DNA of 64,000 bases from Acidobacteriota bacterium. Its GTDB lineage: Bacteria > Acidobacteriota > Blastocatellia > Chloracidobacteriales > Chloracidobacteriaceae. A program made the position numbers and the translations under genes. Below the pieces are notes generated by a model that worked only from the letters and a program-made list of their open reading frames with translations, did no database searches and had not been told where the DNA came from. Of the stretch, positions 34,336 to 62,548 are shown one piece after another. Position 1 is the stretch's first letter. Each line of letters begins with the position of its first letter. The DNA lies in the NCBI GenBank assembly GCA_016208495.1, contig JACQXX010000063.1:1-64000 (forward strand), read 5' to 3'.

Positions 34336-34634
34336 AAATTGGGTTCGGGGTTGGGGGTTCGGGGTTCGGGGTTCGGGGTTCGGGGTTCGGGGCTTCGGGG
34401 TTCCGGGTTCCGGGTTCCGGGTTTTCCGGGTTCCGGGTTCCGGGTTCCGGGTTTTCGGATTTATGTCCTTTTCGTCCTTTTCGTCCTTTTCGTTATTTCT
34501 CTAACCTCTAACCCCAAACCCTGAACCCCAAATCCTGAACCCCAAACCCTGAACCCCAAACCCTGAACCCCAAACCCTGAACCCCAAACCCTGAACCCCA
34601 AACCCTGAACCCTGAACCCTGAGCCCTGAACCCT
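34336..34634. repeat. Compound array: GGGGTTC, GGGTTCC, TCGTCCTTT and AACCCTGAACCCCAA words
   Basis: Four word types fill the whole MoxR-hslO gap: 34336-34400 GGGGTTC, 34398-34455 CCGGGTTCCGGG, 34462-34495 GTCCTTTTC, and 34505-34634 CCCCAAACCCTGAA. The left half is G-rich and the right half C-rich, so a long hairpin can form, and the left half is G-quadruplex-prone. The array ends about 8 bases before the hslO start codon. Confidence 0.95.
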
Positions 34635-44444: not shown

Positions 44445-44469
44445 TTGGGTTCCGCGCTTCCGAGGTTTC

Positions 44470-44610
44470 TGAAGGGATGAGGGATGAAGGATGAGGGATG
44501 AAAAAAATCCCTCTTTTCATCTTGTCACTCTGTCCGGGTTTTCGAATTTATGTCCCTTTCGTCCTTTATGTCCCTTATGTCCTTTTCTTCACCAAACCCT
44601 GAACCCCGCA
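44470..44610. repeat. GGGATGAAGGATGA array and GGGTTTTCGAATTT / TCGTCCTTT element
   Basis: GATGAGGGATGAAGGATGAG words (44473-44500) are followed by CCGGGTTTTCGAATTTATG, repeats of TCCTTTATGTCC (44550-44585), and CAAACCCTGAACCCC. The second part is a copy of the composite seen at 34.4, 52.7 and 62.5 kb. It fills the gap to the deacetylase gene. Confidence 0.85.
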
Positions 44611-47034: not shown

Positions 47035-47170
47035 CAGGGTTCAGGGTTCAGGGTTCAGGGTTCAGGGCCAGATACTCCACGTTGAGTGGTACCCGCCAGT
47101 TCCCCAGTCTTCATCTTGAGTCGGATCAGTCAACTCATCGCCGAAACCCTGAACCCTGAACCCTGAACCC
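47035..47170. repeat. Inverted pair of GGGTTCA arrays
   Basis: Left arm 47035-47069 (GGGTTCA, five copies), right arm 47144-47170 (CCCTGAA in reverse complement). The 74-bp core contains TACTCCACGTTGAGTGG. It lies in the 3' region of the BMP-family gene and is quadruplex-prone. Confidence 0.9.
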
Positions 47171-50973: not shown

Positions 50974-51117
50974 GAATTATGAATTATGAATTATGGAATA
51001 TGAAATAGGCAGATCGGTGAAGTAGATGACCTGGGGTTTGCTCTGGTAGATTGTTTTGAGGTTATCTTATTGATTTGTCAATAGTTAAGAGTTCATAATT
51101 CTAATTCATAATTCATC
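50974..51117. repeat. Inverted pair of GAATTATGAA arrays, second locus
   Basis: Left arm 50974-50995, right arm 51091-51117 in reverse complement, core about 95 bp. It ends at the aroDE stop codon. The remainder of 50824-51112 contains no gene. Confidence 0.85.
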
Positions 51118-52705
51118 CTTTCTGTGCGGCGTCAAACATCAGGTCAAATGGAATCTCCTGCCCGGTCCAGGCAGCAAACTGGAGGCGAGCCTGCTCAACC
51201 AGCATTTCCAGCCCGTCCAGCGTGGCGATTCGCTGTGCCTGTGCCACCGCGAGAAGGGGTGTCAGGCGCGGGCGGTAAATCAAGTCATAGACCCAGTGCA
51301 GTCCAGAGAGTTGTTGCGGTGTCACAGGCATGGTAGCCGGGTTGGCTGTGCCATGCATTCCAATTGGGGTACAATTAACGGCGCCTTCAAACTGATGCCC
51401 GCGAAAATCTTCCAGCGAACGGCAATTGGTTCCAAATTTGTCGGCCAGCGCCTGAGCTTTTTCCTGATTGCGGGCAAAGAGCGTAACCTGTGCCTGACGC
51501 TGAACCAGCCCATACACGAGGGCGTGGGCTGATCCTCCAGCCCCAAGTACCGCCACCCGTGAACCAGCCAGTTTAAATCGTTTTTCAAGCGGAATCATGG
51601 CGCCATCCACGTCCGTGTTGTGGCCAATCAACCGGTTTCCTGCAATCAGCAATGTATTGACCGCCCCGACCGCTTCAGCGATTGTTGTCAGACTATCAAG
51701 CAACGGGATAACTGCCTGTTTATGTGGGATCGTGACACTAAATCCCATTGATTGAAATGGAACCTGACGGCTTTGAGGGTGGACAAGAAACTGGACAAAA
51801 TCAGCCAGATCAGTGCTTTGGGGTTGTACCTCAAACGGAAGATAGACCCAATCGAGCCCCAAGGCTTCAAACGCGGCATTGTGCATATGCGGCGAAAGCG
51901 AGTGCCCGACCGGTTTTCCGATCAATCCGGTGACTTTGGTCGCCGTTGAGAGTCGGTGGATGTGATACACCTGACGTAAATCAGCCGCTGAAAACTGGCC
52001 TGGTGCTGACAGATTCCCATCTGGCGCGGCAGAATAGGTTACCTGACTGCCAAGCGCCGGTCCCAAAATCCGGGTTGGTGCGCCAGGTGCTCCCATTCCA
52101 ATCAAAATAAACCGTTGCCTGGATTGCGCTGCCAGCAACTGAAAAGCAGTAAAGAGCGCCATCAGGTCACGAATCGAAGCTGTGCGGACCGCGAGTTTGA
52201 TGGTTGCCGCTTCGCGTGGAAACCGTTGCTCAATCAATGCCGGAAGATCCTCTGGGGTATGCTCAAACTCGTGCCAGGAAGCAATAATTTTGTCCCACGG
52301 AAGCGCCGCTGCTCCCAGTTTTTCAACCAGCATTGGCACAAAATCAGCTTCAAGATCAAACTGGACATCTGGAAGCGTCAAAACCTGGTGCCAGAAAGCC
52401 AGTCGTTCATCAAGGGAAATTTCCCGCTTGCCGCCCTGTTCTTTTGGGCGAAACGTGATAATCACTGGTTTTGAGCATTCGGCCACGAGCGTTTCAACCG
52501 TCAGGCGTGACTGACCTGGGTCAAGGTCTTCCAGAAAATCAAGCCGGAGTTCAATCCAGTCGGCATTCGGTTGAGCCTGGGCAATCGCCTGTCTTGCATC
52601 GCCAAGGGTTGGGGAGAGAATCGGGGTGCAGATTCGGGTTCCGGGTTCCGGGTTCCGGGTTCCGGGGTTAAAAGATGAAAAGGACATAAAGGACATAAAG
52701 GACAT
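51113..52705 (-). CDS. aroDE: Bifunctional 3-dehydroquinate dehydratase / shikimate dehydrogenase
   Basis: About 530 residues from the array-borne ATG at 52705; the conserved start of the enzyme is ICTPILSPTLGDAR, 24 codons later, with no normal start codon near it. Type I dehydratase (about 25-240): SWHEFEHTPE with the catalytic His and IKLAVRT with the Schiff-base Lys. Shikimate dehydrogenase (about 255-525): GLIGKPVGHSLSPHMHNAAF substrate loop and NADP motif GAGGSAHALVYGL. It carries steps 3 and 4 of the shikimate pathway. Chorismate mutase lies at 23.3 kb. The upstream 24 codons are repeat-derived: MSFMSFMSF, then NPGTRNPEPGTR. Confidence 0.92.
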   Translation of the reverse strand: MSFMSFMSFSSFNPGTRNPEPGTRICTPILSPTLGDARQAIAQAQPNADWIELRLDFLEDLDPGQSRLTVETLVAECSKPVIITFRPKEQGGKREISLDERLAFWHQVLTLPDVQFDLEADFVPMLVEKLGAAALPWDKIIASWHEFEHTPEDLPALIEQRFPREAATIKLAVRTASIRDLMALFTAFQLLAAQSRQRFILIGMGAPGAPTRILGPALGSQVTYSAAPDGNLSAPGQFSAADLRQVYHIHRLSTATKVTGLIGKPVGHSLSPHMHNAAFEALGLDWVYLPFEVQPQSTDLADFVQFLVHPQSRQVPFQSMGFSVTIPHKQAVIPLLDSLTTIAEAVGAVNTLLIAGNRLIGHNTDVDGAMIPLEKRFKLAGSRVAVLGAGGSAHALVYGLVQRQAQVTLFARNQEKAQALADKFGTNCRSLEDFRGHQFEGAVNCTPIGMHGTANPATMPVTPQQLSGLHWVYDLIYRPRLTPLLAVAQAQRIATLDGLEMLVEQARLQFAAWTGQEIPFDLMFDAAQKG

Positions 52706-52760
52706 AAGTTCGAAAACCCGGAACCCTGACAAGGTGACAAGGTGACAAGGTGACAAGGTG
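52634..52760. repeat. GGGTTCC array, AAGGACATA array and GACAAGGTG array at the aroDE start
   Basis: GGGTTCCGGGTTCC words (52637-52670), then AAGGACATA three times (52677-52706), AACCCGGAACCC, and GACAAGGTG four times (52727-52758). The minus-strand reading of the middle array gives the ATG-TCC-TTT codons that start aroDE. Confidence 0.95.
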
Positions 52761-52900
52761 ATTTTTTTCAGCCCTTATCTCTTAAAGGACCTGGAACCCG
52801 GAACCGCAATTTCCTGATAGTGTGAGACAGTAGTTTTGTAGATAATGTGCCACACACTCCACGACATCTACTTCACCACATCCAGGAAGGGAATTTCGCT

Positions 52901-53677
52901 ATGCAGACTGCTCCGCACGCTACTCCAAAATCCGTTCGTGAACAGGTATCAGCCGAAGAATGGCAGATTCGGGTTGATCTGGCCGCCTGCTACCGACTGG
53001 TGGCCCACTATCGCTGGGATGACCTCATCTTTACACACATTTCCGCCCGTGTTCCAGGTGCCGACCACCATTTCCTGATCAATCCCTATGGCATGATGTT
53101 TGACGAAATCACGGCCTCCAGCCTGGTTAAAGTTGACATCAATGGAAATATCGTCATGGAAACGCCATATCCGATTAACCCGGCGGGATTTACCATTCAT
53201 AGCGCTGTCCATGCCGCCCGCGAAGACGCCCGGTGTGTTTTACACGTCCACAGCTTGAATGGCGTCGCCGTGTCAGCCCAGAAAAACGGCTTGCTTCCGC
53301 TCTCGCAACAATCGCTGTTTGTGCTTTCAAGCCTTGGCTACCACAACTATGAAGGTGTGGCGCTTAACGAAGGGGAAAAACCCCGGTTGGTAGCGGATCT
53401 TGGGGAAAATAAATTCCTGATCCTGCGCAACCATGGCCTGTTGACCTGTGCTGAAACGATTGCCGATGCCTTTTTATATATGTACTTGATGGAAAGCGCC
53501 TGCACGATTCAGGTCCGTGCCCAGTCGGGAGGCGGCGAATTGATTCCCGTGCCGACGCCAATTTTGCAGGGAATCCAGGCTCAAGCCAAAGTCGTGACTA
53601 AAAGTGTTGGCGGTGCCCTGGCCTGGCCTGGGTTGTTGCGCAAACTTGATCGGATTGATCCATCATTTCGAGAGTAA
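52901..53677 (+). CDS. Class II aldolase/adducin family protein
   Basis: The protein has 258 residues from the ATG at 52901 (AAGGGAA nine bases upstream). The family zinc-binding motif HVHS (VLHVHSLNG, about 110-118) and a late RNHGLL (about 178-183) supply metal ligands, with THISARVP early on. Relatives include L-fuculose-phosphate aldolase, ribulose-phosphate epimerase-type and decarboxylase-type members. The sequence is closest in style to the adducin-like bacterial group whose reaction is not defined. It is probably a cytosolic oligomer. It is upstream of the DUF962 gene but spaced 78 bases. Confidence 0.88.
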   Translation: MQTAPHATPKSVREQVSAEEWQIRVDLAACYRLVAHYRWDDLIFTHISARVPGADHHFLINPYGMMFDEITASSLVKVDINGNIVMETPYPINPAGFTIHSAVHAAREDARCVLHVHSLNGVAVSAQKNGLLPLSQQSLFVLSSLGYHNYEGVALNEGEKPRLVADLGENKFLILRNHGLLTCAETIADAFLYMYLMESACTIQVRAQSGGGELIPVPTPILQGIQAQAKVVTKSVGGALAWPGLLRKLDRIDPSFRE

Positions 53678-62370: not shown

Positions 62371-62454
62371 AGTATTCCTGCCTTGTGAAGGGGTTGAGTG
62401 CCTGGCCTGAGTTTTTATCAAACTTTAGGGGCAAGATAAACCAAACTTAGGGTT

Positions 62455-62548
62455 TGAGGGTTCAGGGTTTTAGAAGAATGACCCAAAGGACAAAAAGGAC
62501 GAAAAGGACATAAATTCGAAAACCCGGAACCCGGAACCCGGAACCCTC
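62455..62548. repeat. GGGTTCAGGGTTTT / AAAGGACA / AACCCGGAACCC inverted composite
   Basis: The left arm GAGGGTTCAGGGTTTT (62456-62472) and right arm AAAACCCGGAACCCGGAACCC (62519-62545) are inverted; the core has AAGGACAAAAAGGACGAAAAGG. It is a small member of the family at 34.4, 44.5 and 52.7 kb. It sits between kinase and regulator genes. Confidence 0.9.

Follow-up and report, generated by a model that had tools for sequence, protein, structure and literature searches.

A composite tandem repeat abuts the aroDE coding sequence of an acidobacterial genome and may supply its translation start

Results

The aroDE locus and its missing start codon

The window analysed here is a stretch of 64,000 nucleotides from contig JACQXX010000063.1 of a draft Acidobacteriota genome (GCA_016208495.1). 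Its minus strand carries aroDE (Table 1), the product of which has the Pfam domains PF01487 (from profile position 1), PF08501, PF18317 and PF01488 and aligns over its full length to the solved structure 2gpt. As in other bifunctional AroDE proteins, a DHquinase_I domain is followed by the N- and C-terminal domains of shikimate dehydrogenase with the conserved catalytic columns kept, including all of the invariant columns H162, K187, K346 and D382, which we take to have a catalytic role. The gene is present in single copy, no recognisable type II dehydroquinase was found when the genome was searched, and a chorismate synthase was found. Because of these features and the conserved columns, decay of aroDE is unlikely, and the enzyme looks both intact and needed. 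A search for related loci in a collection of genome contigs gave relatives of the shikimate dehydrogenase half only, and no second strain.

Table 1. Features of the aroDE locus, in window positions
Feature	Positions	Strand	Basis
aroDE core, encoding a bifunctional enzyme (type I 3-dehydroquinate dehydratase and shikimate dehydrogenase); ATC 52633 is the first of 506 codons, followed by a stop	51113..52633	-	Pfam, structure alignment
ATC codon, beginning of conserved protein (rival start)	52631..52633	-	Reading frame; mRNA prediction (mostly paired)
7-mer array CGGGTTC x4.6, left terminal arm, flush with aroDE coding sequence; minus strand reads PGTRNPEPGTR	52634..52666		Tandem Repeats Finder
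9-mer array AAAGGACAT x3.2; minus strand reads ATG-TCC-TTT three times	52679..52707		Tandem Repeats Finder
In-frame ATG 3, 18-residue leader, closest canonical start	52685..52687	-	Frame reading, mRNA folding
In-frame ATG 2, 21-residue leader	52694..52696	-	Frame reading
In-frame ATG 1, 24-residue leader	52703..52705	-	Frame reading
AACCCGGAACCC, inner inverted partner of left arm; mRNA pairing with left arm leaves three AUGs in loop (predicted)	52715..52726		
8-mer array TGACAAGG x4.4; minus strand provides in-frame TTGs 52756 and 52732	52727..52761		Tandem Repeats Finder
T-run and degenerate TCATCCC segment of composite repeat	52762..52792		Alignment with other copies
GGAACCCGGAACC, right terminal arm, inverted relative to left arm	52793..52805		Copy alignment, nhmmer
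Neighbouring gene, divergent from aroDE: protein with a class II aldolase/adducin domain, probable ATG start at 52902	52847..53677	+	ORF list, Pfam

On the minus strand, the conserved protein begins at position 52633 with CGA/ATC TGC ACC CCG ATT CTC ("ICTPILSP"), and position 1 of the DHquinase_I profile falls on the Cys that directly follows the Ile of this ATC. The upstream frame reads ...CTT ATG TCC TTT ATG TCC TTT ATG TCC TTT TCA TCT TTT AAC CCC GGA ACC CGG AAC CCG GAA CCC GGA ACC CGA / ATC TGC ACC CCG. No ATG, GTG or TTG was found in this frame at or after the aroDE-side edge of the 7-mer array, which confirms the first-pass annotation's claim that ICTPILSP has no start codon at or just before it. 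Upstream of the core, the in-frame ATGs (52687, 52696 and 52705) all lie within the 9-mer array; these were indeed the only ones, as had been noted, although two in-frame TTGs at 52756 and 52732, within the 8-mer array TGACAAGG and preceded by a stop codon, had been missed. The MSFMSFMSF leader was likewise confirmed as three ATG-TCC-TTT units, but the leader from the first array ATG is, in full, MSFMSFMSFSSFNPGTRNPEPGTR.

A composite repeat dispersed through the genome

Tandem Repeats Finder identified three perfect arrays, CGGGTTC x4.6 (52635-52666), AAAGGACAT x3.2 (52679-52707) and TGACAAGG x4.4 (52727-52761). The tract had been taken to end at 52760, but as a copy of a composite repeat dispersed through the genome it extends to 52805. 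The left end of this copy (52634-52805) is flush with the ATC codon, and inspection of the flanks at 52634 and 52805 by eye revealed no target-site duplication.

The tract has 57 DNA matches elsewhere in the genome. Twenty of these were compared, and most share one order of parts, some being partial: GGGTTCN heptamers, AAAGGACAT-type nonamers, TTCGAAAACCCGGAACCC, TGACAAGG octamers, TTTTTTTCA, TCATCCC heptamers and GAAAACCCGGAACCC. An nhmmer profile built from 14 copies found 79 matches in 1.49 Mb, with the aroDE copy, itself one of the 14, ranking second (52636-52805, E 1.3e-46). The same profile gave 7 matches in 0.35 Mb of the nearest large-genome relative (G001) and none in 0.4 Mb of a small-genome relative (G003). 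Of the longer copies, 42 of 43 are intergenic with respect to the predicted genes, and their gene contexts closely resemble the background. With its dispersed copies and inverted terminal arms, the composite repeat has the form of a MITE or REPIN. Further full or partial copies in the window lie at 44456-44610, 34434-34535, 62447-62540 and 202-279.

Two other dispersed elements were observed. One has AGTCAGT heptamer arms flanking a conserved core of about 100 bp that contains GATCGTTGAATCCGTGGAATTCTTGAAAAGAATTG (L072:3778-3965, L087:17999-18152, L112:17217-17433, L122:8210-8454 and L128:9270-9433). The other has GGGTTCA arms around a conserved core containing GATGAGTTGACTGATCCCACTCAAGATGAAGACTGGGGAAC, inside a larger shared flank (L038:5800-5928, L079:2568-2695, L105:13338-13459 and window 47035-47170).

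Short tandem arrays across the genome

Arrays were counted in 1.49 Mb, or 18%, of this genome (G000), the assembly of which is a draft in 177 contigs; genes in the sampled sequence were called with a simple codon model. With a threshold of at least three perfect copies, 345 arrays were found, 276 of period 7, 41 of period 8 and 18 of period 9, and almost none of any other period. The density over all periods was 23 per 100 kb in G000, 24 in G001 and 1 in G003, where every array had period 12; the G000 values are slightly high because a few of the sampled pieces were chosen for holding the 9-mer array. For periods 7-9 alone, the contrast was about 22 per 100 kb in G000 against 0 in 400 kb of G003, and the density here is far beyond chance. 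Similarly, the pattern GGGTTCN x3 has 2532 matches in G000 and 813 in G001, and none in the seven genomes of genus g4, which are small members of the same family (about 3.7 Mb, two replicons).

Within the G000 sample, 279 of the 335 arrays of period 7-9 are intergenic. In their 7-bp unit (276 of the 345), their three or more head-to-tail copies, their many sites and their mostly intergenic location, the arrays resemble the STRR class. Furthermore, as in Xanthomonas, the arrays form convergent inverted pairs: where two arrays of the same word lie in inverted orientation at most 500 bp apart, the G-richer strand comes first in 44 of 44 independent pairs in G000 and 27 of 27 in G001, a single polarity. 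This G-rich-first order holds for 16 different words in two genera.

Arrays within coding sequences

Fifteen arrays in G000 lie in frame within coding cores, and nearly all arrays within coding sequences other than aroDE are 7-mers. In several cases Pfam domains flank or enclose them, as where arrays at 800-858 stand between TPR and CHAT domains, or where arrays separate Trans_reg_C from PD40; further in-frame cases include propeller repeats and, in G001, a polyketide synthase and a CHAT domain. In the latter genome, two heptamer arrays at L133:16526-16608 lie within a CHAT domain with the frame unbroken.

The aroDE orthologue of G001 provides a close comparison. A heptamer array, (GAACCCT)n, ends directly at its ATG, which survives, and two more heptamer arrays lie within the dehydrogenase half. 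Since domains surround several of the in-frame arrays and the G001 aroDE carries arrays of its own, arrays are part of coding sequences in both G000 and G001, and by inference the in-frame arrays of these genomes are translated. The G001 gene (C59; L011:2530-2550 and L011:2775-2865) also has a run of nine A residues that breaks the frame. This is likely a sequencing indel rather than a sign of decay; alternatively, it is possibly a transcriptional slippage site.

Among 61 arrays near the N-terminal sides of genes in the 1.49 Mb sampled, aroDE is the sole gene left without a canonical start after its array. L092 was considered as a second gene with a repeat-supplied start and rejected, since an ATG follows its array. 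In L134 of G001, the array lies just after an upstream ATG, that is, within the N-terminus of a gene that keeps its own start.

Candidate translation starts

In all 24 relatives with an alignable N-terminus, a start codon precedes the residue aligned to Ile 52633 by 1-9 codons, and in none of the 24 does the protein begin at the equivalent residue itself; here, the nearest canonical start is 18 codons away. The start is at -1 in the closest comparisons, as GTG in 7 of 7 genomes of the small-genome sister genus and as ATG in G001. In the predicted mRNA fold, the 7-mer arms pair with each other, leaving the three AUGs in an open loop and placing the AUC in the stem, with unpaired probabilities of 0.75-0.84 around ATG2 and ATG3 versus 0.01-0.15 at the AUC.

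Shine-Dalgarno duplex energies were calculated with the standard anti-Shine-Dalgarno sequence, as the 16S rRNA is absent from the assembly. The ATGs gave -3.2, 0.1 and 1.5 kcal/mol, the TTGs -2.1 and 1.5, and the ATC -3.5, so that no candidate has a good ribosome site. Weak pairing is common in this genome: at their nearest ATG, 31% of genes form a duplex at least as stable as -5 kcal/mol, versus 9% of controls. A scan for promoters and terminators gave no match, and thus no recognised promoter upstream of aroDE. In the comparison with a Salmonella-type AroD, query residue 15 corresponds to residue 33 of the chain, an offset that puts about 18 residues ahead of the same strand; by this alignment, an N-terminal extension of the leader's length occurs in type I dehydroquinases with solved structures.

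Slippage of the arrays was also considered, the locus having been proposed as possibly phase-variable. Computed frames show that changes in 9-mer or 8-mer copy number are neutral to the ATG-initiated frame. Only the 7-mer array, which lies between the array ATGs and the enzyme core, could shift it: changes of +3n copies keep the ATGs, +1 leaves one TTG with a 38-residue leader, and +2 leaves no start at all.

Discussion

A repeat that probably overran a start codon

A copy of the composite repeat, one of many in this genome, is present at aroDE, and no canonical start lies at or after its edge. We consider it probable that the repeat overran the native start and that translation begins at an array AUG, adding a leader of 18-24 residues, with the repeat being tolerated. 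In this scenario, the copy at 52634-52805 would have reached codon 2 of aroDE, either by inserting there or by expanding up to it, and removed the native start, which in the nearest relatives directly precedes this codon. The gene would still be expressed, with the 9-mer array providing the start at one of its three in-frame AUGs; these have no clear Shine-Dalgarno site and would lie in an exposed, U-rich loop enclosed by the two paired 7-mer arms. In front of its first beta-strand, AroDE would gain a leader that is encoded by the repeat and probably disordered, and the last array ATG would be the simplest start, giving MSFSSFNPGTRNPEPGTR-ICTPIL.

The first-pass annotation had offered two options, a start and leader supplied by the array or initiation at ATC at the old position. 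An array AUG is favoured because of the start positions in relatives, the open AUG loop as opposed to the paired AUC, and the known N-terminal extensions; the in-frame arrays in other proteins also speak for it, making this the best-supported of the readings. Initiation at AUC 52633 with the repeat untranslated is unlikely. Such a start would be within one codon of that used by the nearest relatives, its duplex energy is marginally the best of the candidates, and the enzyme would then be unaffected by array slippage. However, AUC initiates translation very poorly, and this one is predicted to be paired; in-frame canonical AUGs are available a short distance upstream, and the N-terminus would be one residue shorter than in any of the 24 relatives compared.

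An assembly error, with the true chromosome having a canonical start between the repeat and ICTPIL, also appears unlikely. It is conceivable because aroDE is the sole case among the 61 arrays near N-termini, and because a repeat family that occurs dozens of times is, in a draft of this kind, a classic cause of mis-joins. Against this, the 7-mer array is only 33 bp long and adjoins the conserved codons with no gap, a junction that ordinary short reads should span; moreover, if repeat copies had collapsed, the bases next to unique aroDE sequence would not have been lost.

A start at either TTG of the 8-mer array, with a leader of 33-41 residues, is improbable. The TTGs are in frame and open, the automatic ORF listing begins there, and TTG is used by 77 of 574 genes in this genome under a crude start model; but their sites are weak, three ATGs follow within the next 24 codons, and the leader would be longer than in any relative. 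Equally improbable is a portable start-and-leader cassette, in which the 9-mers would offer in-frame AUGs in an exposed hairpin loop, the 8-mers TTG starts and the 7-mer arm the frame, such that insertion in front of a gene would replace its start and, through 7-mer slippage, make expression three-state (full, low or off).

Finally, very little weight attaches to a contingency locus, an addition to the array-AUG start in which 7-mer slippage would toggle AroDE between ATG-start, TTG-start and off, in line with the computed three-state frames and the neuO precedent (PMC3046976), since a biosynthetic enzyme that lacks a backup is unlikely to serve as a switch, the 7-mer has only 4.6 copies, changes in the 9-mer and 8-mer have no effect, and 7-mers are probably not hypermutable, given that they prevail among the in-frame arrays of other genes. 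A frame shift by 7-mer slippage thus stands as a computed possibility, while the short array and the in-frame 7-mers of other coding sequences make a functional switch unlikely. Most likely, the composite repeat is an overgrowth tolerated by aroDE rather than a dedicated switch.

Relation to known repeat systems

The locus is a clear candidate case of a short-repeat element that, as it spreads, overwrites the start of a housekeeping gene and provides a replacement start and leader. It belongs to a genome-wide system of ordered 7-, 8- and 9-bp arrays with an invariant inverted-pair polarity, which in this lineage enters coding sequences. As the arrays are absent from the small-genome sister genus, their origin and spread are open to study by comparison.

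Short, dispersed, non-coding, intergenic and bounded by inverted arms, the composite repeat is like REPINs and MITEs, from which it differs in being built from tandem arrays of variable copy number. In the Beggiatoaceae, TAACTGA direct repeats lie a few bases from start codons, including those of presumably essential genes, usually without a Shine-Dalgarno sequence, and some occur inside ORFs, mostly at protein ends (PMC4679880); that system, however, uses one word only and the start codons are kept downstream of the repeats. Intergenic heptamer arrays of the GGGAATC type are known from Xanthomonas and Nostoc, with convergent pairs in Xanthomonas (PMC4692102), and the cyanobacterial STRR sequences are also heptamer arrays (PMC2670836). 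The genome described here shares with these its many G-rich 7-bp arrays, mostly intergenic and often two close by in convergent orientation. It differs in that many words of 7, 8 and 9 bp are arranged in ordered composites, that the G-rich arm comes first in every inverted pair, and that some arrays enter coding sequences.

For an array within a gene, the nearest likeness is neuO of the E. coli K1 prophage, where phase variation has been demonstrated for an AAGACTC heptanucleotide array of 2-93 copies, which encodes an N-terminal leader with a period of seven residues, dispensable for activity (PMC3046976). With an array start, aroDE would share with neuO a 7-bp array at the 5' end of its coding region, the copy number of which determines the frame. 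In neuO, however, a native start precedes the array and the product is a capsule-modifying enzyme, whereas aroDE is a housekeeping gene with a start apparently taken from a second, 9-mer array. The aroDE case is a variation on the known heptamer arrays and on 5' coding arrays like that of neuO.
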